From positions 1-29,912 of IMG/VR virus record IMGVR_UViG_3300011115_000008: a DNA stretch of 29,912 nt; one strand, written 5' to 3'. Below the pieces are notes generated by a model, which saw nothing but the letters and a program-made list of their open reading frames with translations, made no database searches and was not told the origin of the DNA. The translations under genes were made by a program, and so were the position numbers. Of this stretch, positions 4,377-29,085 are shown in pieces. How positions within the stretch are numbered: the first letter of the stretch is position 1; every line of letters begins with the position of its first letter. Source of the DNA: a virus.

Positions 4377-4381
4377 CGTTG
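4368..4381 (+). promoter_or_regulatory. Ribosome binding site selecting a TTG start
   Basis: AAGGAG at 4368-4373 overlaps the last codons of the portal gene and sits 5 bases before TTG at 4379. The frame has no ATG in a suitable place, so TTG is the best start. The 10-mer AAGGAGTAAC seen here recurs before the scaffold gene (4978) and the capsid gene (7309). Confidence 0.7.
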
Positions 4382-4576
4382 AACGACTACAAACTGTTGG
4401 CGCACGTAGCCAAAGAGATTGAGAAGTTGAAGGAAGAGCAAGCTTTTCATGTTGCAAGTGGTAGAGCCGCTGACATTGAAGAGTATCGAAGTATCTGTGG
4501 GGTGATCCGAGGCCTTAACCTAGCAGAAAACATTATTAATGACCTCGTGCAAAAACTGGAGAAATCTGATGACTGA
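4379..4576 (+). CDS. Small helical protein of unknown function, TTG start
   Basis: This 65-aa protein looks almost wholly alpha-helical and charged: KLLAHVAKEIEKLKEEQ, then a REYRSICGVIRGLNLAEN-like stretch and INDLVQKLEKSDD. Short proteins of this shape, with a '[IV]RGL..A...I.DLV' pattern, occur in the head modules of short-tailed phages, but I do not know their function. The start is TTG, supported by the AAGGAG just upstream. The gene is translationally coupled: its last 8 bases overlap the start of the GroES-like gene. The position between portal and scaffold makes a head-assembly role plausible, which is inference only. Confidence 0.75.
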   Translation: MNDYKLLAHVAKEIEKLKEEQAFHVASGRAADIEEYRSICGVIRGLNLAENIINDLVQKLEKSDD

Positions 4577-4979
4577 ATTTGACGTCGCTGCCGTAGACCT
4601 GTCTGGCATTCTTAATAAGCCATCTGAAGACAAAGCTAAGCAGTTGCCTGACCCACGTACATTTCACATTTTGTGTGTGGTGCCGGAAGCTATGCAAGAG
4701 TACGCAGATAGTGAAGTTGGGATTATTAAATCCAGCCAATCTATGCACTTTGAGGAAGTACTCACTCCCGTTCTATTTGTCGTCAAGCTTGGGCCTGACT
4801 GCTATAAAGATAACACTCGTTTCCCTAGCGGGCCGAGTTGCAAGGAAGGTGATTTCATCATCTGCCGCCCAAATTCAGGCACCCGTCTGAAGATCCATGG
4901 CCGTGAATTCCGCATCCTTAATGATGATTCGGTTGAAGCAGTTGTGGAAGACCCCCGTGGTATTACACGTGCAGCATAA
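4569..4979 (+). CDS. GroES-like co-chaperonin
   Basis: This 136-aa protein probably acts as the lid of host GroEL and helps fold a phage protein, as T4 gp31 does for its capsid protein. The C-terminal two thirds follow the GroES plan: a strand FHILCVV (32-38), a flexible loop with GII (51-53) where GroES has its hydrophobic mobile-loop triad, a strand VLFVVKLGPD (68-77), then CKEGDFIICRP (91-101), GTRLKIHGREFRIL (104-117) and the closing DDSVEAVVEDP (119-129). About 30 extra residues precede the fold. An earlier in-frame ATG at 4539 is possible, but GGAGA at 4558-4562 is spaced 6 bases from 4569. It lies between portal and scaffold. No GroEL gene is visible, so it would use the host chamber. 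Confidence 0.78.
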   Translation: MTEFDVAAVDLSGILNKPSEDKAKQLPDPRTFHILCVVPEAMQEYADSEVGIIKSSQSMHFEEVLTPVLFVVKLGPDCYKDNTRFPSGPSCKEGDFIICRPNSGTRLKIHGREFRILNDDSVEAVVEDPRGITRAA

Positions 4980-4989
4980 GGAGTAACTA

Positions 4990-5994
4990 ATGGCACAAAC
5001 TGAGTTTCAAGATGACTTTAAGTTTCCTCACGAAGCAGAGGAAGAAGCTAAGGGTAAACCCGAGGCAGAAGAGGATGATGGCGGCTTTGATGTAGAAATC
5101 GAAGACGATACACCTCGTAAAGACCGTGGCCGCAAGCCAGATGACACACCACCTGAAGACCCCACTGAGGATGAACTCGCCACTTATGACGAGAAAGTCC
5201 AGTTGCGGCTAAAGAAATTTACACGTGGATACCACGATGAGCGCCGTGCAAAAGAAGAAGCACTGCGTGAACGCGAGGCGGCTGAGAAGCTGACCAAGCA
5301 ATTGTGGGAGCAGAACCGCAAGCTACAGGAACAAGTATCGCTTGGGTCAAGAGCGTACATTGAGCAGTCAAAGAGTTCCGCAGAGATGGAATTTGAGAAC
5401 GCTAAGAAGAAGTACAAAGAGGCTTATGAGTCCGGAGATTCCGATGCTGTGGTAGATGCACAAGCAGAAGTTTCACGGGCTACGCTGAATCTTGACAAGG
5501 TTCAGAACATGAGGCCTTTACAAGTCGAAGAAAATAATGTACAAATACAACAACGTAGTACAAATCAACCTTCTGTTACTCCAAAAGATGAAAGTTGGAT
5601 GCAGAAAAACACTTGGTTTGGTACCGATCCTGAAATGACAGCTTCCGCCCTCGGGTTGCATCAAAAGCTGGCAAAGGAACACGGTGCTAACTTTGTGGGC
5701 TCTGACGAGTACTACAAACGAGTAGACGCTACAATGCGTCGACGATTTCCTGAGTACTATGACGGTGCTCAGAGCTATGAAGATGATGCTCCTTCGAAAA
5801 AGGCATCAGAACCGGCTTACGAGGATGAACCTCCGCGCCGTGCAACAAAACCCGCTACTGTTGTGGCTCCGGCCTCACGTAGCACTCCGCCTAATCGTAT
5901 TAGGCTGAAGGCATCCGAAGCAGCGATCGCTCGCCGTCTTGGGGTTCCTTTGGAAGAATACGCTAAACAGGTTGCTCAACTTAAAAGAGGTTAA
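4990..5994 (+). CDS. Head scaffolding protein
   Basis: This 334-aa protein probably directs capsid assembly and leaves or is expelled before DNA fills the head. The first ~60 residues are highly acidic (EEEAKGKPEAEEDDGG). A long charged helical region with coiled-coil character follows (about 70-180: YHDERRAKEEALREREAAEK, LWEQNRKLQEQV). The middle holds QKNTWFGTDPEMTASALG, a segment I recognise from scaffold-type proteins of short-tailed phages. The C-terminus is basic (RIRLKASEAAIARRLGVPLE), as expected for the capsid-binding end of scaffolds. It lies just before the capsid region and has an AAGGAGTAAC ribosome binding site. No protease domain is visible. Confidence 0.82.
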   Translation: MAQTEFQDDFKFPHEAEEEAKGKPEAEEDDGGFDVEIEDDTPRKDRGRKPDDTPPEDPTEDELATYDEKVQLRLKKFTRGYHDERRAKEEALREREAAEKLTKQLWEQNRKLQEQVSLGSRAYIEQSKSSAEMEFENAKKKYKEAYESGDSDAVVDAQAEVSRATLNLDKVQNMRPLQVEENNVQIQQRSTNQPSVTPKDESWMQKNTWFGTDPEMTASALGLHQKLAKEHGANFVGSDEYYKRVDATMRRRFPEYYDGAQSYEDDAPSKKASEPAYEDEPPRRATKPATVVAPASRSTPPNRIRLKASEAAIARRLGVPLEEYAKQVAQLKRG

Positions 5995-14204: not shown

Positions 14205-14624
14205 ATGGCGATTGTCCAAACCCAAACTACCAGCTTTAAGGCGCAGTTGTACCAAGGTATTCATGACCTGACAACTGACGTTATAAAGATCGCTTTGTAC
14301 ACAGCCAATGCTAATTTGAATGAAGACACAACCGTGTACAGCACAGATAATGAAGTAGCTAATACAGGTACTTACTCTGCTGGCGGCTCGCAATTAACAC
14401 CTATTACAGTCAGTACTTCTGGTTCTACGGCATATGTAGGCTTCCCCAATATTGCTTGGACAGGCGCAATCACAGCTAGATGCGCGTTGATTTATAACGT
14501 TACCCAAGGTAACAAGTCCGTTGCTGTTTTGGATTTTGGCTCAGACAAGACTTCTACGACCACATTCACAATTACCATGCCGACCAACGGCGCAACCACT
14601 TCGTTGATTAGGAGTTCAAATTGA
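14205..14624 (+). CDS. Beta-rich virion protein, paralogue A
   Basis: This 139-aa Thr-rich protein contains FKAQLYQGIHDLTTDVIKIA, LYTANANLNEDTTVYST, EVANTGTYSAGGSQLTPITV and the end FTITMPTNGATTSLIR. The same landmarks recur in the same order in the gene at 14822-15298, so the two are paralogues. No signal peptide or enzyme motif is visible. Probably a tail- or fibre-associated structural protein. This is inferred from location right after the adaptor and from composition. Confidence 0.75.
   Translation: MAIVQTQTTSFKAQLYQGIHDLTTDVIKIALYTANANLNEDTTVYSTDNEVANTGTYSAGGSQLTPITVSTSGSTAYVGFPNIAWTGAITARCALIYNVTQGNKSVAVLDFGSDKTSTTTFTITMPTNGATTSLIRSSN
14611..14623 (+). promoter_or_regulatory. Ribosome binding site selecting a TTG start
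   Basis: GGAG at 14611-14614 lies six bases before TTG at 14621, which overlaps the TGA of the previous gene (TTGA). No ATG or GTG is available at the expected place, so TTG is the likely start. Confidence 0.65.
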
Positions 14625-14821: not shown

Positions 14822-15298
14822 ATGGCTAATACCCAAGCAATGTGCACTTCGTTCCTAGGCGAAGTTCTTACTGCAACTCATAATTTTGGTGTAGCGCCTA
14901 TTCGTGCTGCTACCACTGCTGATACGTTCAAAGCAGCTTTGTATTTGACAAGTGCAACGATTAATGCGTCAACAACTGTGTATTCTTCTTCTGGTGAAGT
15001 GTCCGGTACAGGTTATTCGGCTGGCGGTGTTACGGTAACAAATGCGACTGCGCCTTTGGCTTCTAATACATCGACAACTGCCGGTACAGCTTATTGGACG
15101 CCTTCAGCTTCAATCACGTACACAACCGTGACTTTAACGACTGCATTTGACACAGTATTTATTTATAACTCTACTCAGAGTAATAAGGCTGTCAGCGTAC
15201 ATACCTTCGGTTCACAAACAATTACCGCCGGTACATTTACATTGACTATGCCTGCTAATACCACTGCTGCTGCGTTGTTGCGTATCGCTACAACCTGA
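14822..15298 (+). CDS. Beta-rich virion protein, paralogue B
   Basis: This 158-aa protein shares with the 14205 gene the segments TFKAALYLTSATINASTTVY, SGTGYSAGGVTVT, FIYNSTQSNKAVSVHTFGS and GTFTLTMPANTTAAALLRIA, in the same order. It has a longer N-terminus (ANTQAMCTSFLGEVLTATHN). Its start context TAAGGAAACATCATGG is identical to that of the 8390 gene. Probably a tail or fibre component. Duplication followed by divergence of sequence explains the pair. Confidence 0.75.
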   Translation: MANTQAMCTSFLGEVLTATHNFGVAPIRAATTADTFKAALYLTSATINASTTVYSSSGEVSGTGYSAGGVTVTNATAPLASNTSTTAGTAYWTPSASITYTTVTLTTAFDTVFIYNSTQSNKAVSVHTFGSQTITAGTFTLTMPANTTAAALLRIATT

Positions 15299-15307
15299 AA
15301 GTAGGGT

Positions 15308-16147
15308 ATGGCTCTCGGGTGGGGCGATAATGCGTGGGGCGACTATGGTTGGGGCGGCGCAATTGCTCTTACAGGCAATCAAGCTGTTTCAGCCATTGGT
15401 ACGGCCTCGCCTATCGTTTCTGTAGCGCTTACAGGTGTAGGTGCTTCAGGGGCAGTTGGTACAGTTGTTCAGAGTCAGTCAGCCGCTGAGATTGGTGATT
15501 TAGCAACTGCATCAGTTGGTACGGTTGGCACTTTGGTTACGGTTGCGTTGACTGGTGTTGGTGCGATAGGTTTAAATGGTACGCCTTGGGGTTACGACAC
15601 TTGGGGTAGCGGGGTTTGGGGCGGTACTAATGTAGGGTTTGGTTACGGATTTGGGATTACGGGCGTAGGCGCTACAGGCGCGGTTGGTGATGTATCTGTT
15701 GCGGGGCGTTCATTTGCGTTAACAGGAGTTGGAGCTTCTGGTGCAGTTGGGTCTGTAGTAAATGACAGCAGCAAAGCTCTAACAGGCGTTGCGGCAGCGG
15801 GTAGTGTAGGTACAGTTGGGGTTACACGTAGCACTGGGATAACAGGCAACTTTGCACAGGGTGAAGTTGGTGGGCCAATTGTGCCGTTGAACTCTAACCA
15901 AGCGCAGGCTTATGTTGGTACGGTAACTCCGGGTAAAACAGTTGGGTTGACTGGTGTAGGTTCAACAGGTGCTGTAGGAACAATGGGTACGCCTAGAACG
16001 CTAGGTTTGACTGGTAATGGCGCAACGGGTAGTGTTGGAAATGTAGTGGCTGTTTATTGGAAGCTCATCGACGACAAACAATCAAATGTTTGGCAATTAA
16101 TAGATGACAAACAGTCAACAGTTTGGCAGAATATAAATACTTCGTAA
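15308..16147 (+). CDS. Tail protein with ALTGVGASGAVGTV-type repeats
   Basis: This 279-aa protein opens with a Trp/Gly segment (LGWGDNAWGDYGWGG) and then carries about ten imperfect units built on [AG]LTGVGASGAVGTV, spaced about 18-30 residues and interrupted by a second Trp/Gly patch (TPWGYDTWGSGVWGG). The C-terminus (250-279) has a tandem W[KQ]LIDDKQS[NT]VW repeat. Short Gly/Val repeats with regular periodicity suggest an elongated beta structure such as a fibre shaft. The ribosome binding site is weak and lies close to the ATG. The repeats make the gene prone to unit gain or loss. Confidence 0.72.
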   Translation: MALGWGDNAWGDYGWGGAIALTGNQAVSAIGTASPIVSVALTGVGASGAVGTVVQSQSAAEIGDLATASVGTVGTLVTVALTGVGAIGLNGTPWGYDTWGSGVWGGTNVGFGYGFGITGVGATGAVGDVSVAGRSFALTGVGASGAVGSVVNDSSKALTGVAAAGSVGTVGVTRSTGITGNFAQGEVGGPIVPLNSNQAQAYVGTVTPGKTVGLTGVGSTGAVGTMGTPRTLGLTGNGATGSVGNVVAVYWKLIDDKQSNVWQLIDDKQSTVWQNINTS

Positions 16148-16156
16148 GGAACGAAC

Positions 16157-16702
16157 ATGGCAGCTACAACGACTCTTCTGGGTTTAGTCACCCCCACACA
16201 GGGAACGCTCTCTGGTACGTGGGGCGACACAGTCAACTACGGTATTTCTGACTACGTGGACATTTCCATCGCAGGCACGTTGTCTTTTGCGGGTGATGGC
16301 GCTATTACTTTGGCTAACACCACAGGTAGTGCATCAGGAAACAATATTGGTAGCACAACAGCCCAATACATGGTGATTCGTATCACCGGCACACAAACTG
16401 TTACCAAAGTAATTACAGGCCCCAGCTACAGCAAACTGTACATGGTGGATCACGCAGGCGCTACCAGCGCAGTAACTTTTAAAGCAGCCGGTCAGACAGG
16501 TGTCTCGGTTGCTGTTGGTGAAAAAGTATTCGTGTACTATAACGGTACAGACTATGTCAAAGTAGCTCCATATTTTGTAAGTGGTGTTTTGCCAATTGCA
16601 AATGGCGGTACAAATGCTACAACGGCAGCAGCAGCACTATCCAATCTTGGCGGTGTATCAACAGGTAAATCCATCGCAATGGCGATGATTTTTGGATTCT
16701 AA
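16157..16702 (+). CDS. Fibre-type structural protein with Phage_fiber_2-like segment
   Basis: This 181-aa protein is beta-rich, beginning AATTTLLGLVTPTQGTLSGTWGDTVN. Near the end it has GVLPIANGGTNATTAAAALS and NLG, the short repeat found in phage tail fibres (Phage_fiber_2 type), followed by STGKSIAMAMIFGF. This end, with its hydrophobic tail, is one I recall in many phage structural proteins. A strong AAGGA site precedes it. Probably a tail or fibre component. Receptor binding is not shown. Confidence 0.78.
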   Translation: MAATTTLLGLVTPTQGTLSGTWGDTVNYGISDYVDISIAGTLSFAGDGAITLANTTGSASGNNIGSTTAQYMVIRITGTQTVTKVITGPSYSKLYMVDHAGATSAVTFKAAGQTGVSVAVGEKVFVYYNGTDYVKVAPYFVSGVLPIANGGTNATTAAAALSNLGGVSTGKSIAMAMIFGF

Positions 16703-16711
16703 GGAGCTAAC

Positions 16712-17083
16712 ATGGCAAACCCAAACATAGTTAATGTAACGAGTATTTACGGCAACACATCGTATTTAATCCCAGCTACTACGGGGGCTACGACATGGAC
16801 GGCTCTAACTCCTGCGTCTGGTACGGTTAACAAGATTGACAACATTGTTGCGTCTAATGTGACTTCTAGCGCGGCGACTGTAACGGTGTCTGTTAATAGT
16901 GCAACGGGCGGCGGCGGTACAGCGTATCGAATTGCATACCAAGTCAGCGTTCCTCCTAATGCTTCATTGATCGTTGTAGATAAAACCACGGCGTTTTATT
17001 GCGGTGAAAGCCAATCAATAGTAGTGACTGTTGGAACATCCAGCGCCATTGAAATGACAGCATCATTTGAAGCAATCACCTGA
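16712..17083 (+). CDS. Small beta-sandwich virion-type protein
   Basis: This 123-aa protein begins ANPNIVNVTSIYGNTSYLIP and runs through alternating strands (NKIDNIVASNVTSSAATVTV, YRIAYQVSVPPNASLIVVDK, SIVVTVGTSSAIEMTASFEA). The opening 'NPNIVNVTSIYG' is one I recall from small proteins in tail regions of cyanophages and other aquatic phages, described only as structural. Located between a fibre-type gene and the glycine-rich adhesin genes, it is probably a tail accessory protein. Confidence 0.75.
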   Translation: MANPNIVNVTSIYGNTSYLIPATTGATTWTALTPASGTVNKIDNIVASNVTSSAATVTVSVNSATGGGGTAYRIAYQVSVPPNASLIVVDKTTAFYCGESQSIVVTVGTSSAIEMTASFEAIT

Positions 17084-17095
17084 TCGGAGGTTCTT

Positions 17096-17953
17096 ATGGG
17101 ACTTCGATATACGGGCGGGATTCTCTCAGCCGGTTTAAACGGCATTAACTACCCTGTCACAACGGTGGAATACTTATGTGTGGCTGGCGGGGGTGGTGCT
17201 GGTTATTCAGCGGCGGCTGGCGGCGGTGCGGGTGGTTTATTAACTGCAACAGGATTTGCTGTAACTATTGGGTCTGCAATAACCATTACTGTTGGTGCTG
17301 GTGGAACGGCTGGAACTGGTTCTGGAACCGCTACAAATGGCGTAAATTCAAGTATTGCTGGAGGCACAACCATTACTTCTACAGGTGGCGGTAAGGGTGC
17401 AGAAGGTTCTAACGCAAGTTCCTCTGGTGGTTCTGGTGGTGGCGGTGCGGGTGGTACTTCAAATGCGGGTGGCGCAGGAACTTCTGGGCAAGGATTTGCT
17501 GGTGGTGCAGGACAGGCATCTGCTCCTTATGGCGCTGGAGGCGGTGGAGGTGCTGGTTCTGTAGGATTACAAGGTGTCAGCACAGGCGGTAATGGTGGAA
17601 CGGGTTTAGCCTCATCCATATCGGGCGCACAAATCTTTTATGCTGGCGGTGGAGGCGGTGGTATTGGTTCAAATAACATTGCTGGTTTGGGCGGTGGCGG
17701 TGGCGGTGGTAATGGTGGTTCAGGCGCAGATACTGCAGGTTCAGCGGGGTTAGCCAACACAGGCGGTGGCGGTGGTGGAGGTAGAAACTCAACAGTTGGA
17801 ACAGCAGGCGGCGCAGGCGGCTCAGGCATCGTAATCCTACGCTACCCATCTTACTTAGCCCCTGCTACATCAACAACTGGATCACCAGAAACTTATGTCA
17901 CAGGCCCGTGGCGTGTTTATCGCTTTGTGGCAAGTGGCACTATTACATTCTGA
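17096..17953 (+). CDS. Glycine-rich adhesin-like tail protein, module 1
   Basis: This 285-aa protein has a short leader (residues 1-23) and then a glycine-rich module opening VEYLCVAGGGGAGYSAAAGG and closing GSGIVILRYPS at about 240-250, with an aromatic end WRVYRFVASGTITF. Between these lie runs of Gly separated by short Ser/Ala/Asn loops. Such patterns build polyglycine-II sandwich folds in the T-even gp38-type tail-tip adhesins, where the loops contact receptors. The similarity here is in pattern, not traceable sequence. Three further genes carry the same module. The gene likely helps determine host range, which is inference. Confidence 0.8.
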   Translation: MGLRYTGGILSAGLNGINYPVTTVEYLCVAGGGGAGYSAAAGGGAGGLLTATGFAVTIGSAITITVGAGGTAGTGSGTATNGVNSSIAGGTTITSTGGGKGAEGSNASSSGGSGGGGAGGTSNAGGAGTSGQGFAGGAGQASAPYGAGGGGGAGSVGLQGVSTGGNGGTGLASSISGAQIFYAGGGGGGIGSNNIAGLGGGGGGGNGGSGADTAGSAGLANTGGGGGGGRNSTVGTAGGAGGSGIVILRYPSYLAPATSTTGSPETYVTGPWRVYRFVASGTITF

Positions 17954-17959
17954 GGATAT

Positions 17960-18838
17960 ATGGCTACAGGACTTTTTACTCTCAGACAACAAAACCAAGC
18001 ATTAAGACAAGGTGCATGGAGTGGTACGCAAAAAACTAACTTTGTTGAATATTTAGTTGTTGCTGGTGGTGGTGGTGGCGGTTATTTGGATGGCGGTGGC
18101 GGTGGTGCGGGTGGACTTTTAACGGGCATATTGTCTGTTGCTATTGGCTCATCTATTACCGCTACTGTTGGTGGTGGTGGTGCTGGTTCAACATCGTCAT
18201 CAGCAAAAGGTGTGAGTGGAATTGATTCTGTATTTGGCAATATTACCGCTACAGGAGGCGGTGGTGGTGGAAGCCATAACGTGGCACAAGATGGTGCTAA
18301 TGGCGGTTCTGGCGGTGGCGGTTCTCACGGCAATCCAACTGTAGGTGCGGCTGGTTCTGGCACATTTGGTCAAGGCAATGCGGGTGGCATTGGTTTTCTT
18401 GGCGGTAGTGGCATAAACGCTGGAGGCGGTGGCGGTGGTGCAGGGACTATTGGGAACGCTGGTAAATCAAATGGCGGTGCTGGCATAGCGTCTGCTATCA
18501 ATGGAACTGTAACCACATACTCAGGCGGTGGTGGTGGCGGTCAAGAACAAAATGGTGGTACTGGCGGTGAAGGTGGCGTTGGTGGCGGTGGTCACGGCTC
18601 ATACAATTCTGCGGGTGCTGGTGGTACTGCTGGTAGCACAAACACAGGCGGTGGTGGAGGCGGTGGTGGATATTACGCTGGCCTTGCAGGAAATGGTTTT
18701 GCAGGCGGCTCTGGCATTGTCATCATCCGCTACCCAAGCACATTTGCTGATGCTGCAAGCGTGACTAACGGCACAAAGACAACTGCTAACGGCTACACGA
18801 TTTACACATTCACATCTAGCGGAAGTATCACACTATGA
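17960..18838 (+). CDS. Glycine-rich adhesin-like tail protein, module 2
   Basis: This 292-aa protein has a different leader (MATGLFTLRQQNQALRQGAW) and the shared module from VEYLVVAGGGGGGYLDGGGG (about 29) to GSGIVIIRYPSTFADA, ending YTIYTFTSSGSITL. Intervening Gly-run loops differ from module 1 in sequence and length. GAGGA precedes the ATG. It overlaps the next gene by four bases (ATGA), so modules 2 and 3 are made in coupled amounts. Same role as module 1 is inferred. Confidence 0.8.
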   Translation: MATGLFTLRQQNQALRQGAWSGTQKTNFVEYLVVAGGGGGGYLDGGGGGAGGLLTGILSVAIGSSITATVGGGGAGSTSSSAKGVSGIDSVFGNITATGGGGGGSHNVAQDGANGGSGGGGSHGNPTVGAAGSGTFGQGNAGGIGFLGGSGINAGGGGGGAGTIGNAGKSNGGAGIASAINGTVTTYSGGGGGGQEQNGGTGGEGGVGGGGHGSYNSAGAGGTAGSTNTGGGGGGGGYYAGLAGNGFAGGSGIVIIRYPSTFADAASVTNGTKTTANGYTIYTFTSSGSITL

Positions 18839-19704
18839 GTGCAAATCTTGGTGGTTTCATTAGCGCAACCTTTAACCCTTTGAGTGGCGCACCTACTGCT
18901 GTTGAATACCTTGTGGTTGCTGGTGGTGGTGGGGGTGCGGGTTATTGGGGTGGCGGTGGGGGTGCTGGCGGTTTATTAACTGCTTCTAACTTTTCTGTAA
19001 CTACTGGTTCTGCAATTACTGTCACTATTGGTGCGGGTGGTACTGGTGGAAACACTGTATCTGGAAGCAATGGCGCAAATTCTGTTTTTAGTTCTATAAC
19101 TGCAACTGGAGGTGGTGGTGGTGGTTATGGCGCAGGTGGAAATAATGGTGGCTCTGGGGGTGGTGGTGGCTGGCAAAATACTGGTGGTACGGGCGTATCT
19201 GGACAAGGTTTTGCTGGCGGTAGTTCTGATGGCACTTCAAGCCAATATGCTACTGGTGGAGGTGGTGGCGCAGGGTCGGCTGGTGGCTCTGTAGCATCAG
19301 GAATTGGAACAAGTGGAAGCGGTGGCACAGGATTATGCTTAACCATAACTGGACAAAGGGTTTTTTATGCTGGCGGTGGTGGTGGTGGTGGTAGAAGTGC
19401 TAGTTCTAATATTGCGGGGTTAGGCGTTGCTGGTGGCGGTGGTGGTGGTTCAGGCAATGGGACAAGCACACTTTCTAATGGTCAGACAGGAACGGCAAAT
19501 ACAGGTGGCGGTGGTGGTGGTTGCATGAGTAATGCGGCTGGCGTTGATTCTGGCGGCAACGGAGGTTCTGGCATCGTAATCATCAGATACCCTGCTTCAC
19601 AAAGCCCTCCCACATCATTTGGCGGTGCAAGTACACCTCAAGTCAGCTATGCTGACGGCTATCAGATTTATACTTGGACATCTTCTGGCACTATTACTTT
19701 TTAA
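18835..19704 (+). CDS. Glycine-rich adhesin-like tail protein, module 3
   Basis: This 289-aa protein has the leader SANLGGFISATFNPLSGAP, then the module from VEYLVVAGGGGGAGYWGGGG (about 23) to GSGIVIIRYPASQSPPTSFG, and the end YQIYTWTSSGTITF. The centre includes NSVFSSITATGGGGGG, a line also found in the tandem protein at 20079-21773. It starts within the stop of the previous gene. It probably contributes to the tail tip or fibre surface as its paralogues do. Confidence 0.8.
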   Translation: MSANLGGFISATFNPLSGAPTAVEYLVVAGGGGGAGYWGGGGGAGGLLTASNFSVTTGSAITVTIGAGGTGGNTVSGSNGANSVFSSITATGGGGGGYGAGGNNGGSGGGGGWQNTGGTGVSGQGFAGGSSDGTSSQYATGGGGGAGSAGGSVASGIGTSGSGGTGLCLTITGQRVFYAGGGGGGGRSASSNIAGLGVAGGGGGGSGNGTSTLSNGQTGTANTGGGGGGCMSNAAGVDSGGNGGSGIVIIRYPASQSPPTSFGGASTPQVSYADGYQIYTWTSSGTITF

Positions 19705-19713
19705 GGAGCAAAC

Positions 19714-20067
19714 ATGAGCCATTTCGCAAAAGTAGAAAACGGTGTAGTGACGCAAGTCATCGTCATCGAGCAGGACGTTTTAAACCTTGGTCACTGGGGT
19801 GATCCAGCTTCCTATGTACAAACTTCATACAACACTTCTGGTGGAGTTCACTCACAGGGCGGTACGCCACTGCGTAAGAATTTTGCTGGTATTGGATACA
19901 CATACGATGCAGGTCGTGATGCGTTTATTCCCCCCAAACCATTTGCGTCTTGGTTGTTGGATGAAGCCACTTGCCATTGGAATGCGCCTACACCCATGCC
20001 CGTTGTAGAAGGCAAAATGTTTAAATGGGACGAACCCACAACATCTTGGGTTGAAGTAACCGCCTAA
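19714..20067 (+). CDS. Conserved phage tail-region protein (SHFAKVENG family)
   Basis: This 117-aa protein reads SHFAKVENGVVTQVIVIEQD, then VQTSYNTSGGVHSQGG, NFAGIGYTYDAGRDAFIPPK, PFASWLLDE and MFKWDEPTTSWVEV. I recall this exact plan as a widespread small protein in tail regions of cyanophages and pelagic phages, where it is listed as a structural or hypothetical protein. It interrupts the glycine-rich series, lying between modules 3 and 4. No signal peptide. A tail-fibre accessory or assembly role is possible but unproven. Confidence 0.8.
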   Translation: MSHFAKVENGVVTQVIVIEQDVLNLGHWGDPASYVQTSYNTSGGVHSQGGTPLRKNFAGIGYTYDAGRDAFIPPKPFASWLLDEATCHWNAPTPMPVVEGKMFKWDEPTTSWVEVTA

Positions 20068-20078
20068 TAGGAATAATC

Positions 20079-21773
20079 ATGGCTCAATACAGTGGAATGT
20101 GGACGCTAAGTCAGGTCAGTCAAGCCGTAAAAGACTTGAATTGGACGGGCATTCCTCCGTCTGTTGTTGAGTATTTGATTGTTGCTGGTGGTGGATCAGG
20201 TGCTGGTAATAGAGGTATTGGTGGCGGCGGCGGTGCGGGTGGGTTACTTGCAGGATATGCAGGTATTACATCTGGGTCTTCTTATTTTGTGACCGTTGGT
20301 GCTGGCGGTGTTGATTCTGGCTCCGCAAATGGCGGTGTTGGAAATAACTCTGTTTTTGATTCAACAACTTCTGCGGCTACTACTGGACGAATTGTTGCAT
20401 CTGGCGGCGGTACTGGCGGTGAAGCGGGTGTAGCTGGCTATGCTGGTGGCTCTGGTGGCGGTGGCAGTAGAGGATGTTCGGGTGGCTCTGGTATATCAGG
20501 GCAAGGAAATGCAGGGGGTTCTGGACAAGCATCAGTTGCAAGTCCATATAAAGGTGGCGGCGGTGGCGGTGCGGGAACTGTTGGCTTACAACCAGATGAT
20601 AGTGGCGGTGGCTCTGGTGGTAATGGAGGTGCGGGGATTGCAAGTGCCATTTCTGGAACAGTAACCACATACGCTGGCGGCGGCGGCGGCACATCAATTA
20701 CTCCTAGTGGCGGTGCTGGTGGCGTAGGTGGTGGAGGTGCTGGTTCATCTTCAACTGCTGGAACTGCTGGAACTGTCAACACAGGCGGTGGCGGCGGCGC
20801 AAGTTATGGCGTTAATGGTGGCTCTGGCGGTAGCGGTATCGTCATCCTCCGCTACCCCGGCTCAATTCAATATTTCACTGGTGGCACAGTAACCTACGCC
20901 GCTGGTAATGTCGTTCATACGTTTACATCTTCAGGCACATTGGCTCCAACAACGCCAACTAATTTCCTTGCGGCTAACGTAGTTGTATTCTTCTCGTCCA
21001 ACACATGGACAGCCCCTGCTGGCGCAACTCAAGTTGAATACTTAGTTGTAGCTGGCGGTGGTGGTGGTGGTGGAACAGACGCTGGTAACTATTCTGCTGG
21101 TGGAGGTGGTGCTGGTGGATTTCGCACTGCCACAGGACTTTCTGTTACTGCTGGCACAACTTACACAGTTACTGTTGGTGCTGGTGGAAATGGCGGTGTT
21201 GGCGGAGGCGCGTCATATTATGTAAACCCTTCCTCTGGTGTTGATTCTGTGTTTAGCAGTATTACTGCAACTGGCGGTGGGCGCGGTAGTAATCAAGCTA
21301 ATGAGTCTGGCGCTAGTGGTGGTTCTGGTGGGGGCGGTAGGAATACTGGCACTGGTGGTGCTGGCAATACCCCAAGCACATCCCCCTCTCAAGGTAATAC
21401 TGGAGGTAATGGAGGTGCTGGCGCAGGAGGCGGCGGTGGCGGCGCAAGTGCGGTAGGTGGAAATCCAACTAGTAGCAATACTATTGGCGGTGTTGGTGGC
21501 GCAGGAACGGCTAACAGTATTACGGGTACTTCTACAACCTATGCAGGTGGCGGTGGCGGTGGCGGATTTACGGGTGCTGGTGGAGCAGGTGGTTCTGGAG
21601 GTGGCGGTGCAGGTGGCATTGGCACAGCAAGTGCTTCAACTCCAGCACCGGGTACAAACGGAATTGCATTTACTGGTGGTGGCGGTGGAGGTGCTGGCAC
21701 ACAAGCCTCGCCTTATGCACCAAGTAACGGCGGTAACGGCGGCTCTGGTATCGTAATCATCAAGTGGAGCTAA
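20079..21773 (+). CDS. Tandem glycine-rich adhesin-like protein, modules 4 and 5
   Basis: This 564-aa protein contains two copies of the module that is single elsewhere. Copy one runs from VEYLIVAGGGSGAG (about 30) to GSGIVILRYPGS (about 262), with HTFTSSGTLAP at 280-290. A linker (about 291-318) contains NTWTAPAGATQVEYL, and copy two then runs to the C-terminus and stops at GSGIVIIKWS, lacking the usual aromatic tail. The leader is AQYSGMWTLSQVSQAVKDLN. The arrangement looks like a fusion of two former single-module genes or internal duplication. It is the largest candidate host-contact protein in the window. Confidence 0.8.
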   Translation: MAQYSGMWTLSQVSQAVKDLNWTGIPPSVVEYLIVAGGGSGAGNRGIGGGGGAGGLLAGYAGITSGSSYFVTVGAGGVDSGSANGGVGNNSVFDSTTSAATTGRIVASGGGTGGEAGVAGYAGGSGGGGSRGCSGGSGISGQGNAGGSGQASVASPYKGGGGGGAGTVGLQPDDSGGGSGGNGGAGIASAISGTVTTYAGGGGGTSITPSGGAGGVGGGGAGSSSTAGTAGTVNTGGGGGASYGVNGGSGGSGIVILRYPGSIQYFTGGTVTYAAGNVVHTFTSSGTLAPTTPTNFLAANVVVFFSSNTWTAPAGATQVEYLVVAGGGGGGGTDAGNYSAGGGGAGGFRTATGLSVTAGTTYTVTVGAGGNGGVGGGASYYVNPSSGVDSVFSSITATGGGRGSNQANESGASGGSGGGGRNTGTGGAGNTPSTSPSQGNTGGNGGAGAGGGGGGASAVGGNPTSSNTIGGVGGAGTANSITGTSTTYAGGGGGGGFTGAGGAGGSGGGGAGGIGTASASTPAPGTNGIAFTGGGGGGAGTQASPYAPSNGGNGGSGIVIIKWS

Positions 21774-23286: not shown

Positions 23287-25395
23287 ATGCCATTACAAAA
23301 AGTTTTATTCAAGCCGGGCGTCAACCGTGAAAATACTCGCTATACCACCGAGGGAGGTTGGTATGAGTGCGACAAGGTGCGTTTTCGTCAAGGCACTCCA
23401 GAAGTTATTGGCGGCTGGCAACCCATTTCAAGCTTTACATACCAAGGCGTTTGCAGGTCACTGTGGAATTGGGCGTCTCTTGCTGGCGCTAACTATATCG
23501 GCGTAGGTACAAACCTTAAGTTCTACATTGAGCAAGGTGGTGCGTACTACGACATTACGCCTATCCGGTCTACAACTGCCGCTGGTGATGTTACGTTTGC
23601 TGGAAATGGCACGACCACTGTTACGGTTACAGACACAAATCATGGCTGTTTAACGGGTGATTTTGTTACGTTTTCTGGGGCTACTGGCACATATGCTACG
23701 ACCCTTAATGCACAGTTCCAAGTCACGGTTTTAACAGCCAATACATACACAATTTCAACTTCCCCAACGGTGGTTGCATCAGGCGCTACAGGCGGTGCTT
23801 CTGTTGTTGGAACGTACCAAATTGGTGTTGGCCCTGCTACTCCTGTTCCACTTCTTGGCTGGGGCGCAGGGTCTTGGGGTAGCCCTCCTCCGGCATCTGG
23901 AACCATTGGTACATGGGGGTATGGATTACCCTCGACATCAGCCCTGCGTTTGTGGAACCAGATTAACTACGGCCAAGATTTAGTGTACGGCCCGCGTGGG
24001 TATGGTATTTACTATTGGACTGCGGCAAACGGAGTAAGCACTCGAGGTGTGTTGCTTAATTCCTTGGGCGGTACGGTATCTTTTACAAACGCTTCGCCGA
24101 CTGTAGTGACTTCTACAATTGAGTACACAGAAGGCGCGGCACTTCAGTTTGCGGCCACCACATCGCTACCTACAGGTATCTCTGCAGCAACTACGTACTA
24201 TGCGTTTAACGTTAATGGTTTGACTTTTAACTTACTAGATAGCGCTGGTAACGAAGTCAATACGTCTTCTACAGGCACAGGTGTGTATGTCTCTAGTATT
24301 GTTGACTGCCCTGTTGTACAAAACAACTTAACGGTATCAGACTCATCGAGGTTCATCATTGCGTTTGGTTGTAATGATTACGGGCAGTCATCTATTGACC
24401 CTATGCTAATCCGCTGGTCTGGACAGAACGATCCTTACAACTGGACACCTGACCCCACCAATCAAGCAGGATTTGCTCGCCTTTCTCATGGCTCACAGAT
24501 CGTGACGACTGTGCAAACCCGCCAAGAGATTGTTGTGTTTACTGACTCAAGCGTGTATTCGCTCCAATACCTTGGCCCTCCATACGTCTGGGCACCGCAG
24601 TTGCTAGGCGACAATATCTCAATCATGAGTCCTAACTCGGCTGTGATTGCATCGGGCATTATTTACTGGATGGGCGTGGATAAGTTCTATGCCTACGATG
24701 GCCGCGTGCAAACGCTTAACTGTGACCTGCGCCGCTACGTGTTCCAAGACCTAAACCAAGAGCAAGCACTGCAAGTATTCTGCGGCACCAATGAAGGCTT
24801 CAATGAGGTCTGGTGGTTCTATTGCTCTGCCGGTAGCAGTGCTATTGATAAGTATGTAATTTATAACTACCTTGAAAAAGTCTGGTACTACGGCACTATG
24901 AACCGCACAGCTTGGTTGGATTCTGGATTATTACCGTTTCCTGTAGCTGCGCCTTACAACAGTTCAACACTTACCGGCAACTTGGTCTTCCATGAGGACG
25001 GGTTAAATGACAATACAACAGGTACAAACGCTGCGATTTCTGCTTATATTAGTTCGTCTGAGTTTGATATTGGTGACGGCCATAACTTTGGCTTCGTCTG
25101 GCGCGTGCTGCCGGACTTAACGTTCTCTGACTCTTCTAACGCTCCTAGCGGTGCAGTACCCGTAGTAACCATGACGCTGTACGGCCTAACCAACTCCGGC
25201 TCTGGTAGAACAAGCAGTGCCAGCCAACCCGTATCTAGTAGCAGTGCATACGACATTACCGAAGAGTTCACAGGGCAAATCTTCACCCGCATGCGTGGTC
25301 GCCAGATGATCTTTAAGGTTGAGTCAAATCAAGTTAATACAGCTTGGCAACTTGGCGCACCCCGTATTGATATTAGACCGGACGGCAGACGCTGA
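23287..25395 (+). CDS. Tail nozzle / tail stabilisation protein
   Basis: This 702-aa protein begins PLQKVLFKPGVNRENTRYTT, then GGWYECDKVRFRQGTPEVIG, the standard opening of large beta-structured tail proteins that form the nozzle under the adaptor ring in short-tailed phages (functional class of P22 gp10, T7 gp12 and the SU10 nozzle). The core has DQNDPYNWTP-like SGQNDPYNWTPDPTNQAG and RQEIVVFTDSSVYSLQYLG. Two Thr/Val-rich beta segments (about 101-176 and 263-337) look inserted into the core. It lies after lysis genes and opens the last structural block. Recognition is from memory of these patterns. Confidence 0.8.
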   Translation: MPLQKVLFKPGVNRENTRYTTEGGWYECDKVRFRQGTPEVIGGWQPISSFTYQGVCRSLWNWASLAGANYIGVGTNLKFYIEQGGAYYDITPIRSTTAAGDVTFAGNGTTTVTVTDTNHGCLTGDFVTFSGATGTYATTLNAQFQVTVLTANTYTISTSPTVVASGATGGASVVGTYQIGVGPATPVPLLGWGAGSWGSPPPASGTIGTWGYGLPSTSALRLWNQINYGQDLVYGPRGYGIYYWTAANGVSTRGVLLNSLGGTVSFTNASPTVVTSTIEYTEGAALQFAATTSLPTGISAATTYYAFNVNGLTFNLLDSAGNEVNTSSTGTGVYVSSIVDCPVVQNNLTVSDSSRFIIAFGCNDYGQSSIDPMLIRWSGQNDPYNWTPDPTNQAGFARLSHGSQIVTTVQTRQEIVVFTDSSVYSLQYLGPPYVWAPQLLGDNISIMSPNSAVIASGIIYWMGVDKFYAYDGRVQTLNCDLRRYVFQDLNQEQALQVFCGTNEGFNEVWWFYCSAGSSAIDKYVIYNYLEKVWYYGTMNRTAWLDSGLLPFPVAAPYNSSTLTGNLVFHEDGLNDNTTGTNAAISAYISSSEFDIGDGHNFGFVWRVLPDLTFSDSSNAPSGAVPVVTMTLYGLTNSGSGRTSSASQPVSSSSAYDITEEFTGQIFTRMRGRQMIFKVESNQVNTAWQLGAPRIDIRPDGRR

Positions 25396-26076: not shown

Positions 26077-29000
26077 ATGAGCCTTGCAGTACTAGCCGAC
26101 CACATGGCATCCAAGGGTCGCGGCCCTGACTCGATGCTTATCCACATGTCCCCACGTGAAGTGCAGGGGCTACAAGCCTTGGCCGAAAAACATGGTGGCT
26201 CGTTGACTATTAACCCACATACGGGTTTACCCGAGGCAGGCTTTTTAGATAAGTTACTACCAGCTATTATTGGTTTTGCTATTACAGCGACTACTGGTAT
26301 CCCCGCATGGCAAGTTGGTTTGGGTGTTGGTGCAGTTGAGACTGCTCGTACTGGTGATTTAGGTAAAGGCATTTCTGCCGGTCTCGGCGCTTATGGTGGT
26401 GCTGGTTTAGGTGCTGGTCTTACAGCAGCCCCAGTAGCGGAAATGGCGGGTTCTCAAATTGCATCTCAAGCTGTGGATCAAGCCGCTCTAGAGGGTATTC
26501 AACTTCCATCAAATTACGCAGAAATGGCAGCAAAGACAGCCACCCCTGACCAGCTTGCTGCAGCTAGGGATTCAATGTCGATTGGGGACTTAGCAAGTAA
26601 AACTGCTACTAATATTGGTAACAATCCTTCAAGTTTACTAACTAAAGACAATTTTAAATATTTAGCTGCTGGCGCTGCTCCTATCCTTGCAGACCAAGCA
26701 GTTAAGTCTAATATGCCGACGACTACAACAAAGCCCGGCATGATTCGTCCGTATTCTTACGACCCTTATGGCGGTACATACACTGCGGGTACACCATACG
26801 AGGTGCCTGTTAAATCTGCCGCAAGTGGCGGCATCATGGGTTTTGATGAAAGTGCAAACTCGCCTATGTCTCGCCAAAGTTTAAGCAATATGGAAAATAC
26901 AGGTGGTATGTTTAACTACGCCCAAGACGGCGGCGGTGTTATGCGCATGGCTGAAGGTGGTATTGCAGGTTATGCACTTGGTGGAGACATCAAAACAGCA
27001 ATTGATGATGCCTATGCAGCGGGTGATTATGCTAAAGTAAACGAGCTCGCCCAAACAAACAAAGTTACTGCCGCTGACGTAGCTGATACATACAAAGGTT
27101 TTGACACTTCTGGTTTGGCTGGTTTGGGTATTAATTTGTTTACACCCCCCGCACAGCAAGCCGCCGCGCAGCAAACTGCTACTACTACTACTACAGAATC
27201 ACCTGCCGACGCTATAGCCCGTATTGGTCGAGAGCAGGCAGAACGCGCAAGAATTGCAAACGCCAACTTAGCCGCGTTACAACCCACAAATACAACTGCG
27301 ACTACCGGTGGTGGTTTAGCTACTTTGGCTAATGCAACGGGTGCAACTACGACAGACGCAACTGGGGCTGGAACTACAACAGGTGGTGGTTTAGCTACTT
27401 TGGCTAATGCAACGGGTGCAACTACAACCGGGGCCACAACTACAGGACGCCCAACTGCCGAACAAGCCGCAGCTACCGTTGCTACCGTTTATCGCAATGT
27501 ACTGGGACGTGATCCTGATCCCAACGGTATGGCTTATTGGACACAGCAACTTACTTCGGGAAATCAAGACAGCGCCACTATGTATGCTGACTTCATTAGA
27601 GGGGCGCAAGCAAACAAAGAAACAGGAAACTTTGGCCTATCCCTTGAAGATGCGCAAAAAGGGTACACAGGGTATTCTTCCGCAGATGCTAGCAACATTG
27701 CTGATGAATGGGTACGAAATGTTCTTGGCCGCGAGGTAACTGATGCTGATCGTAAAACCCAATGGTACAAGGATGCAGTCAACAAAGACGTAATGAATAC
27801 ATACGCCAAGGCTGAAAATATTTACAATAACTTTAGAGACTATGCGGCACTGCAAACAGGATCACCAGCAGCTAATTTAGACTTGTACCAAGCTTCTAAG
27901 TTAATGGGGCCGCAAGCAAAAACCACAGTTACAGGCGGTGGTGGTAACGACGTAATCGTACCGTCTGGCTACCACTTAGAAAATGGCTTAATTGTTAAAA
28001 ATGTAGACGCAACACAGCATACGTCCACTGTTGTAGATACACCCACTAGTATTTCTACAGCAGACAGAACAGCGCTCCCAGTTGGCGTTAGTGGCGCGGG
28101 TATAACTACAATCAATCCCAACGGCACGATTTCAACCCGCCCTGATTTAAGTTTGCAAATGCAGGATGTACGCGACGCCTATACCAAAGGCGGCGGTAGT
28201 TTAGGCGTTAACAAAAACCTTTTTGTTCCTAAAACGCAAGATGAACTTTTTGCAAGATACAAAAATACTGGTGGTTCCAAAGCCGCGTTTGACTATTTGA
28301 TGGGTAAGACGCCTTATTCACCCGTGCCTGTTACACCTACTGGTGAAATTCAAAAACCATATTGGGAGTCTGTTGGTAAAGCTCCAGTTAACTTAGCTAC
28401 CAAAAAATACATTTTCAAAGATGGGAAGTATGAAATTAACCCAGCTTATGTAAAACCTTCTTACGTACAAGCCGCCGAAAAAGCTGAAGCAGACAAAAAA
28501 ACCGCGATTGACACTACAACTGGAACTGGGGTTAAAACTGCGACAATTGGTGGTGTTAACTTTGATCTAAAGAACAGAAATCTTCAGCCAGCAGGCGATA
28601 ACAATGGTGATTGGACATGGTCAGATTCAGCCCAAGAATGGATTCAAATGGGTCGTTATGCCGTAGGTGGGTTAGCTGCGTTAACTATGGCTCGTGGTGG
28701 TACTACGCACATGCCATTCTTCTCAAAGTCAACTGGCAAATTTACTTCACGTGGCCCACAAGTTTATGGGGGTGGTGGCATGGCAGCAGGCGATCAGTTT
28801 GATCTTGGCAGTTACTCTGATGGTGGCCGACTCCTACGTGGCCCCGGTGATGGTGTATCTGATTCCATACCTGCAACTATTGGCAACAAGCGTCCTGCTC
28901 GTTTAGCCGACGGTGAATTTGTAGTACCTGCACGCATTGTGTCTGAGTTGGGTAATGGCTCAACTGAAGCTGGTGCACGCAAGCTATACGCAATGATGGA

Positions 29001-29085
29001 CAGAGTTCAAGCTGCCCGCAAAGGCTCAATCGGTAAAGGCAAAGTGGCTAATAACAGCCGTGCCGACAAATATCTTCCCGTATAA
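26077..29085 (+). CDS. Large internal-virion-type protein with DUF4214-like repeats
   Basis: This 1002-aa protein opens SLAVLADHMASKGRGPDSML and IHMSPREVQGLQALAEKHGG, an opening I recall from conserved phage structural proteins. Hydrophobic Gly/Ala stretches follow (about 58-115: KLLPAIIGFAITATTG, GLGAYGGAGLGAGLTAA) that could insert in membranes. The middle is Thr/Ala-rich with an internal repeat, then DUF4214-like units (about 465-515: VYRNVLGRDPDPNGMAYW; about 543-570: WVRNVLGREVTDADRK). The end (about 920-985) has GDGVSDSIPATIGNKRPARL, ADGEFVVPARIVSELGNGS and RKLYAMMDRVQAARKG, conserved in large phage tail or ejection proteins. Role as ejection or internal protein is inferred. No transglycosylase motif was seen. 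Confidence 0.75.
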   Translation: MSLAVLADHMASKGRGPDSMLIHMSPREVQGLQALAEKHGGSLTINPHTGLPEAGFLDKLLPAIIGFAITATTGIPAWQVGLGVGAVETARTGDLGKGISAGLGAYGGAGLGAGLTAAPVAEMAGSQIASQAVDQAALEGIQLPSNYAEMAAKTATPDQLAAARDSMSIGDLASKTATNIGNNPSSLLTKDNFKYLAAGAAPILADQAVKSNMPTTTTKPGMIRPYSYDPYGGTYTAGTPYEVPVKSAASGGIMGFDESANSPMSRQSLSNMENTGGMFNYAQDGGGVMRMAEGGIAGYALGGDIKTAIDDAYAAGDYAKVNELAQTNKVTAADVADTYKGFDTSGLAGLGINLFTPPAQQAAAQQTATTTTTESPADAIARIGREQAERARIANANLAALQPTNTTATTGGGLATLANATGATTTDATGAGTTTGGGLATLANATGATTTGATTTGRPTAEQAAATVATVYRNVLGRDPDPNGMAYWTQQLTSGNQDSATMYADFIRGAQANKETGNFGLSLEDAQKGYTGYSSADASNIADEWVRNVLGREVTDADRKTQWYKDAVNKDVMNTYAKAENIYNNFRDYAALQTGSPAANLDLYQASKLMGPQAKTTVTGGGGNDVIVPSGYHLENGLIVKNVDATQHTSTVVDTPTSISTADRTALPVGVSGAGITTINPNGTISTRPDLSLQMQDVRDAYTKGGGSLGVNKNLFVPKTQDELFARYKNTGGSKAAFDYLMGKTPYSPVPVTPTGEIQKPYWESVGKAPVNLATKKYIFKDGKYEINPAYVKPSYVQAAEKAEADKKTAIDTTTGTGVKTATIGGVNFDLKNRNLQPAGDNNGDWTWSDSAQEWIQMGRYAVGGLAALTMARGGTTHMPFFSKSTGKFTSRGPQVYGGGGMAAGDQFDLGSYSDGGRLLRGPGDGVSDSIPATIGNKRPARLADGEFVVPARIVSELGNGSTEAGARKLYAMMDRVQAARKGSIGKGKVANNSRADKYLPV
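27307..27425 (+). repeat. 44-bp perfect direct repeat within the 1002-aa gene
   Basis: The segment at 27307-27350 recurs exactly at 27382-27425, 75 bases downstream and therefore in frame, encoding GGGLATLANATGATT twice. Spacer and flanks are similar Thr/Ala-rich sequence (TTDATGAGTTT, TGATTTG). This is a recent in-frame duplication of a 25-codon unit in a likely flexible linker before the DUF4214-like region. Confidence 0.92.

Follow-up and report, generated by a model that had tools for sequence, protein, structure and literature searches.

Four glycine-rich genes, G1 to G4, in the window IMGVR_UViG_3300011115_000008 (29,912 bases, analysed over its whole length; IMG/VR class linear, records of which are often fragments) hold five modules of one kind and enclose a small gene named y. 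The order of these genes is kept across phages, they are paralogs which sort by their position in the array, and their variable loop sets have been exchanged between positions of different phages and are maintained under selection. The array probably encodes a set of receptor-binding tips composed of position-specific leaders, a base and variable loops, with y as a shared chaperone and the upstream protein fibN as an adaptor. Matches to terminase, portal, capsid, SU10-type adaptor, phage lysozyme and virion structural protein families suggest that the window covers the structural half of a tailed phage. The features discussed below are the following.

16157..16702, + strand: fibN, short fibre N-terminal/adaptor protein ending in STGKSIAMAMIFGF, N-terminal part kept in relatives with other fibres
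16712..17083, + strand: x, small protein directly before the array, putative virion part
17096..17953, + strand: G1, type A; leader, glycine-rich module (17165-17845) and C-terminal hairpin, loops in common with type-C genes of loci L332 and L193
17252..17293, + strand: G1 base segment r1 (GFAVTIGSAITITV); amino-acid log-odds weakly A (+2.7), DNA neighbours a mix of A and C
17348..17386, + strand: G1 segment r3 (SSIAGGTTITSTG); type-C partners have SVFSSITSTG and SVFSSITATG instead
17606..17638, + strand: G1 base segment r8 (LASSISGAQIF); A-type, with exchanged loops on either side
17960..18838, + strand: G2, type B; leader, glycine-rich module (18044-18733) and C-terminal hairpin
18835..19704, + strand: G3, type C; leader, glycine-rich module (18901-19590) and C-terminal hairpin; the modelled protein
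19714..20067, + strand: y, likely fibre chaperone by predicted-structure match; PHROG 7759 (function unknown)
20079..21773, + strand: G4, type D with a tandem second module T; modules 20166-20855 and 21033-21767

The coordinates of r1, r3 and r8 were counted by hand, and r3 was not scored for type. A weak PHROG tail-fibre match was obtained for fibN, while x has no Pfam match above the cut-off and no PHROG match.

Glycine-rich modules and the order of the array

The five modules proposed by the first-pass annotation are real, with one in each of G1, G2 and G3 and two in G4, and each opens with VEYL[VIC]VAGGG and closes with GSGIV[IL][IL][RK][YW]. They are 227-245 aa long with a glycine content of 38-42%, and share 54-62% identity in pairs, or 36-53% at the columns where neither residue is glycine, so their likeness is not merely one of common composition. 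All four genes belong to PHROG 2295 (unknown function) and match the Pfam family PF21722 (Gly_rich_2, curated cut-off 24.3 bits) with 79.7 bits for G1, 85.0 for G2, 85.5 for G3 and 154.9 for G4 over two stretches. The genes were also described as four neighbours, which holds as far as they form a close cluster, but they are not directly adjacent, since y lies between the third and the fourth. Likewise, the leaders ahead of the modules (22-29 residues) do differ among the genes of the window, as was said of them, but across phages they are the most position-specific part, with 66% identity at the same position of different phages and 18% between the positions of a single phage. Glycine-rich motifs alternate with hypervariable segments, and the expected constant frame with variable loops was recovered when frame columns were picked from three gene types and scored on the one left out: identity in the held-out type was 0.87-0.90 for the glycine frame, 0.79-0.87 for the non-glycine frame and 0.35-0.38 for the remaining columns, so that divergence is enriched in the loops and not uniform. 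Loop identity in the non-frame columns is 25-28% in all four types.

A non-redundant set of 130 loci holding both modules and y was used to follow the array, modules being counted up to 6 kb upstream and up to 4 kb downstream of the best y. These loci contain 407 modules, namely 229 with a leader of type A to D, 146 without a recognised leader and 32 tandem second modules; the leader-type patterns were devised after viewing the leaders, and gene position was not used. For all 229 typed modules the order is A-B-C-y-D, with A, B and C before y and D after it. Type A (54 modules) stands third or fourth before y, type B (55) second or third before y, type C immediately before y (41 modules and a further 17 of a C variant) and type D (62) just after it, and not one of the 296 order pairs within loci is out of order. 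At least four modules are present in 62 of the 130 loci. Gene x lies directly upstream of the type-A gene in all 50 testable loci, four more being at a contig edge.

Among 204 genes, leader identity is 0.664 at the same position between phages, 0.178 between positions of one phage and 0.180 for unrelated genes. The corresponding values are 0.640, 0.588 and 0.587 for the modules and 0.623, 0.388 and 0.396 for the C-terminus. A tree of 100 modules from 25 phages with all four types needs 6 changes of type (minimum 3) versus 55.8 when shuffled, and 94 changes of phage identity; of its 97 inner branches many are weak, 47 being open, and clustering alone is claimed from it. The position-wise identities and the clustering thus point to four old, distinct paralogs, sorting by position and not by phage. 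This bears on the suggestion that the copies serve as a recombination store within the genome, which finds no support here: the copies of one genome are no more alike than unrelated ones.

In locus L242, fibN is 99% identical to that of the window, x 100%, the capsid protein 92% and the product of gene 23287-25395 95%; the values for G1-G3 are 66, 61 and 62%, for G4 47% (one module in L242, two in the window) and for y 60%. Some small backbone genes are also strongly divergent (45, 36 and 61%), so the glycine-rich heads are not the sole divergent genes. Five loci (L221, L222, L281, L085 and L087) have a type-B module followed by an extra stretch starting with PDVYAA, lectin-like by eye, and a type-C leader within a longer sequence ending in R-A-F/L-N-P-Y-A-G-A-P.

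Predicted folds of the heads and of y

Neither phmmer with G3 nor hmmsearch with a five-module profile gave a match among PDB sequences, and the best that a 94-row module profile gave for the cyanophage Pam3 was E 0.77-0.81, outranked by a spurious match to a pilus ATPase (0.22). Since sequence profiles fail to reach the PDB relatives, the fold is argued from a predicted model. The search of annotated phages with G3 by tblastn gave no match, a result made uninformative by the low-complexity filter.

The AlphaFold2 monomer model of G3, built with 93 relatives, has a predicted local distance difference test (pLDDT) value of 90.4 and a predicted template modelling score (pTM) of 0.89; it contains no helix, and its first 20 residues, which are most of the leader, are poorly placed. 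Foldseek matched it in the PDB to the Bxb1 tail tip (9d93_Qb, E 1.5e-4) and the Pam3 fibre (7ypx_A, E 4e-4), with low TM-scores of 0.30-0.41 for 9d93_Qb, 7ypx_A and 7yfw. VIA-align, run on the top chains of Foldseek, gave Z 13.3 for Bxb1 (170 aa, 3.6 Å), 12.8 for 7ypx_A (166 aa, 2.7 Å) and 12.3 for the second Pam3 entry, then 4.7-5.1 over 102-108 residues for the receptors ALK/LTK, the remainder being at or below 4.2. A match to the helical bundle of a springtail antifreeze protein (Z 3.8) was dismissed as common packing of extended helices. S16 gp38 (6F45) was not among the matches listed by either program, which is no evidence for a different fold.

The model resembles the kind of protein with a TNF-like base and a glycine-rich bundle known from Pam3 gp24 and Bxb1. 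Segments r1, r3 and r8, which vary with gene type, overlap its beta-strands 47-54 with 60-64, 83-90 and 167-178, respectively (by eye), and would form the base of the head, while the variable segments are mostly coil, with two short strands among them (186-188, 206-208). Given these matches to Pam3 gp24 and the Bxb1 tail-tip protein, the glycine-rich proteins are most likely phage adhesin heads.

Gene y has no Pfam match up to E 0.1, hence none to a Pfam chaperone family, and its profile gave only chance-level matches among PDB sequences. Its AlphaFold2 model (85 relatives, pLDDT 95.3) was matched by Foldseek first of all to 7ypx_a, a chain of the same Pam3 entry as was found with G3 (probability 0.85). 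In VIA-align this chain gave Z 5.7 over 53 aligned residues at 2.2 Å, the only Z of at least 5 among the 97 chains aligned (the next being 2.5), and the match spans its residues 3-56. Chain 7ypx_a is taken as gp25, the chaperone partner of gp24, because its 162 residues are the length of gp25 stated in PMC9608196 (this and the other papers are cited here from excerpts). According to that source, the N-terminal domain of gp25 (residues 3-56) holds the TNF-like and glycine-rich parts of gp24. Taken singly, the results for y are modest, but the products of neighbouring genes, G3 and y, independently pick both chains of one complex, which strengthens the reading of y as a likely fibre chaperone, predicted from its model.

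Among 80 loci retrieved with y alone (redundancy not removed, six with y at the contig edge), a glycine-rich gene lies directly upstream of y in 65 of the 74 testable ones, 63 by profile and two by composition. A homolog of y was also found in 37 phage records, 11 of which were examined and the nine annotated ones scored; such a gene directly precedes y in six of the nine (CRP-143, CRP-207, Melnitz-2, HTVC025P, HTVC023P and ctn9Y15). In Roseobacter phage CRP-143 the glycine-rich gp39 and gp41 flank the y homolog gp40; HTVC025P and HTVC023P are Pelagibacter phages. In the unannotated zth2-2 the frame upstream of y has 27% glycine, and Greip, in which y is at the start of the record, was left out of scoring. 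In L500 (MW202674.1) the glycine-rich genes flanking y (3037-3984 and 4361-5290) match the module profile and are annotated as baseplate wedge protein gp6, which is probably a misannotation. The y homologs of L501 (S-SSM5) and L499 (DSL-LC04) lie near 2OG-Fe(II) oxygenase genes, so the y family also has a second context.

Exchange of loop sets between positions

Exchange was studied in 620 unique complete modules, 66 partial matches having been dropped and the 173 modules without a recognised leader being excluded from cross-type counts. The 54,020 cross-type pairs, among which mistyped leaders may remain, have a mean of 0.584 (standard deviation 0.037, 99.9th percentile 0.702). Five cross-type events exceed 0.77, all between phages and all either A-C or B-D, with the cut between event and background (0.78 vs 0.74) set by eye. 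They join G1 of the window (type A) with type C of L332 and of L193 (0.88 each), the best A-type match of G1 being only 0.73; B of L329 with D of L182 (0.86); B of L228 with D of L188 (0.85), the same loops also occurring in the tandem module of L086 (0.79, 0.78); D of L425 with B of L361 (0.82); and B of L209 with D of L129 (0.78). A_L468/C_L085 (0.79) is not counted, as the leader of A_L468 is actually C-type. In the 40 of 227 rows viewed, loop strings identical between types amount to one short motif, SSITATG, which was not used as evidence.

The first-pass annotation proposed that the modules can exchange parts, which is supported between phages. The loops of G1 in the window are 92-94% identical to those of the type-C genes of L332 and L193, and its leader, C-terminus and r8 are A-type, with log-odds for r8 of +16.8 for A vs C and the ten nearest DNA neighbours all A. 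The type-C loops lie to either side of r8, which calls for more than a single crossover or for a transfer followed by refitting. At both r1 and r8, amino acids and DNA alike place the two partners in type C. In the B-D events, the amino acids of r1 agree with the type of the gene in each of the seven genes scored (D of L425 not included), and its DNA neighbours do so in all four B genes and two of the four D genes; r8 does not discriminate B from D. As a control, the leader predicts the type of r1 and r8 in 82 of 87 and 82 of 91 cases for A and in 74 of 83 and 78 of 87 for C, and that of r1 in 67 of 68 for B and 59 of 60 for D.

Outside the base segments, G1 and its L332 partner share 94% amino-acid identity, with a proportion of synonymous differences (pS) of 0.385 and of nonsynonymous differences (pN) of 0.040, vs 67%, 0.558 and 0.214 inside them. 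The base segments comprise just 50-51 codons, which makes single values noisy, and pS is lower outside than inside the base in all five cross-type pairs computed, drawn from four events (D_L425/B_L361 not included). In the control, the type-C genes of L332 and L193 with the same loops, the two pS values are nearly equal (0.320 and 0.362). On these codon comparisons, the exchanged loops descend from a younger ancestor than the base beneath them. The loops of the same two type-C genes differ by a nonsynonymous rate (dN) of 0.015 and a synonymous rate (dS) of 0.42, so a given loop set is kept by purifying selection.

Among 1,891 pairs of modules from the same locus (949 distinct), none has identical loops, the highest value being 0.70. 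This zero is weak, since the rate found between phages predicts hardly any such pair, and for that reason it is not claimed that a phage avoids duplicate loops.

The fibre slot, competing readings and significance

For the slot occupied by the array, relatives were retrieved independently of the array, with the downstream gene 23287-25395. Among the best 80 loci, 28 have at least 6 kb upstream (52 are too short), and these comprise three with modules and y, one with modules only (L047), one with y only (L053) and 23 with neither. The closest of them, L003 (84% in gene 23287-25395), lacks the glycine-rich genes but keeps the flanking genes on both sides and the N-terminal part of fibN (71% over 140 aa), and its slot contains a fibN fibre of 381 aa, a DUF7483 protein of 672 aa and a protein of the tail assembly chaperone family Phage_tail_APC (158 aa). 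In a second set, the best 80 loci retrieved with fibN, 33 have at least 5 kb downstream (47 are short): seven with modules and y, none with modules only, one with y only (L255) and 25 with neither (Fisher p 1.9e-6 for co-occurrence, relatedness not corrected for). As the slot contents vary while the fibN N-terminus stays, the array is one among several exchangeable fibre cassettes behind a common putative adaptor, and the replacement cassette of L003 likewise carries its own helper gene, Phage_tail_APC. The adhesin reading of the first-pass annotation thus gains support from the predicted fold, the refilling of the L003 slot with fibre and chaperone genes, and the chaperone-like neighbour y.

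The median length of fibN is 240 aa in 37 loci with glycine-rich genes downstream vs 372 aa in 75 without, and a C-terminal peptide GK..AM.. (STGK[SA]IAMAMIFGF or near forms) ends it in 19 of the 37 vs two of the 75; it is possible that this peptide is a docking signal. Other loci with glycine-rich genes downstream have a fibN ending in different yet similar peptides (GQAVAMALVFG, AKATMISFIFGF).

Elsewhere in the window, 15308-16147 encodes a 279-aa protein built from repeats resembling ALTGVGASGAVGTV, for which Pfam and PHROG gave no match at the limits applied, and the gene at the same place in L003 (4071-4889) has a similar size and start (MAYAWGDGAWGDAGWGG) and different repeats. A recombination endonuclease VII domain gene (PF02945, 9435-9845) lies within the structural gene block, the nearby genes 14205-14624 and 14822-15298 both belong to PHROG 644 (unknown function), and in the long gene 26077-29085 (DUF4214) the alignment to L003 and L004 is best towards the two ends, the middle being divergent.

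We propose that the array encodes the receptor-binding tip set of a tailed phage, in which each tip would be docked at its own place on the virion by its position-specific leader and would consist of a beta-strand base and C-terminal hairpin under a glycine-rich bundle whose variable loops contact the host surface. One chaperone, y, would fold all the tips, fibN would be the virion-side adaptor, and the phage would display four or five different tips together. Loop sets behave as alleles: they are under purifying selection, occur in more than one phage and are sometimes found at another position, the gene there retaining its own type of leader and C-terminus and some or all of its own base.

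Several points weigh against this proposal. The typed array is not universal, as 41 of the 130 loci have all four types and 60 have no recognised A-D leader, many contigs being cut. The leaders are low-confidence in the G3 model (blocks 48 and 68), so that docking is suggested by their conservation alone. For y, the Foldseek match is weak by itself (E 0.18), a Z of 5.7 is within the range of common arrangements with coverage of residues 1-73 only, and the model lacks a helical trimerisation domain of the gp25 type, its only helices, of four and three residues, both being in the first third. Furthermore, y has no directly upstream glycine-rich gene in nine of the 74 loci and in three of the nine annotated records (phiPsal1, S-SSM5 and DSL-LC04). 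Finally, in the event of the window the base is clearly retained at r8, but r1 is mixed there at the DNA level, as it is in two of the four D-type partners.

Four other explanations were considered. The fixed gene order and the leaders and C-terminal hairpins distinct at each position would also suit a single composite fibre, fibN-x-G1-G2-G3-G4, in which each leader binds the preceding protein and the last head alone touches the host; we consider this unlikely, since with loop identity as low in all four types none resembles a buried shaft. It is rather improbable that the modules are virion decoration or parts of a fibre shaft without receptor contact, with loops varying under little constraint: glycine-rich repeats are of low complexity and the solved matches are titled merely tail tip or fibre, but the loop sets are under purifying selection and exchanged nearly whole, the L003 slot is refilled by other fibre genes, and related glycine-rich adhesins determine host range (PP01 gp38, PMC12892980; Hafunaviridae, PMC8651126).

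Five related modules adjoin and cross-position exchange is real, as would be seen if one copy were displayed and the rest were silent gene-conversion donors as in antigenic variation. Yet the leader and C-terminus are conserved and distinct at each position, the modules of one phage are not homogenised (0.588 vs 0.587 for unrelated ones), no loops are shared within a locus (weak, few being expected) and all five events are between phages, which leaves a silent store very improbable. The least probable of the four is that the exchange reflects convergence or misassembly, although the partners are all metagenomic contigs and glycine-rich repeats are difficult to assemble. The partner loops occur on two separate contigs with dS 0.42 between them, and the exchanged part has many synonymous differences (pS 0.385) while leader and r8 agree with the type of the gene; had current reads been assembled chimerically, near-identical DNA would be expected, and convergence would not produce DNA that is 86% identical over 173 codons.

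As to the tip set that we favour, the head itself appears, by predicted fold, to be of a known kind, that of Pam3 gp24 and Bxb1, and gp38-like in behaviour. With Pam3 gp24 and gp25 (PDB 7YPX, 7YFW) the array shares the predicted TNF-like base with glycine-rich bundle, a separate small chaperone-like gene, the model of y matching the N-terminal domain of gp25, and variable distal loops above a conserved glycine-rich stem (PMC9608196); gp24 was detected in virions by mass spectrometry, and host contact was placed by the authors at its variable distal tip. Unlike the window with its four paralogs and short leaders, Pam3 has a single fibre gene with a long N-terminal helical trimerising domain, and gp25 has a helical domain that the single y protein lacks. 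The mycobacteriophage Bxb1 tail-tip protein (PDB 9D93, chain Q), the best structural match, was compared by structure only. The term 'brush' domain is in use for polyglycine domains (PMC13243795). The gp38 adhesins of T2, S16 and PP01 likewise alternate glycine-rich motifs with hypervariable loops tied to receptor choice (PMC12892980, PMC6851490, PMC12529663), but have a beta-helix base and attach singly to gp37, unlike the several heads per genome seen here. In Hafunaviridae, compared by description only, a glycine-rich adhesin gene paired with a small gene is a host-range determinant, with one adhesin gene per virus in the excerpt of PMC8651126. The TNF-like glycine-rich (TG) domain of ALK/LTK is a weaker fold match in the extracellular part of an animal receptor, with no functional relation implied. 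PF21722 and PHROG 2295, which hold the glycine-rich genes, and PHROG 7759, which holds y, are family names without function. Host-recognition genes, three of them annotated as gp38 adhesin, are among the most variable genes of marine phage populations (PMC3909814). No report of a conserved array of several heads with a leader specific to each position, of y as its chaperone or of loop sets that move from one position to another was listed in the literature searched, which leaves out most subscription journals.

If the proposal is true, it would give a likely function to PHROG 7759 (y) and PHROG 2295 (the glycine-rich heads) and explain how uncultured phages might hold several host specificities together. 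The conserved leaders, base and y offer a simple means of finding and counting such heads in metagenomic data, and loop sets may serve as markers to track their spread between phages. A broader and tentative idea is that this is a widespread design of modular, plug-in host recognition, with four to six heads at fixed virion addresses, one chaperone and loop sets circulating as stable alleles between addresses and phages over a fixed leader, base and C-terminus. Specificity would then move as a unit, independent of its mounting place on the virion, which is a testable claim.

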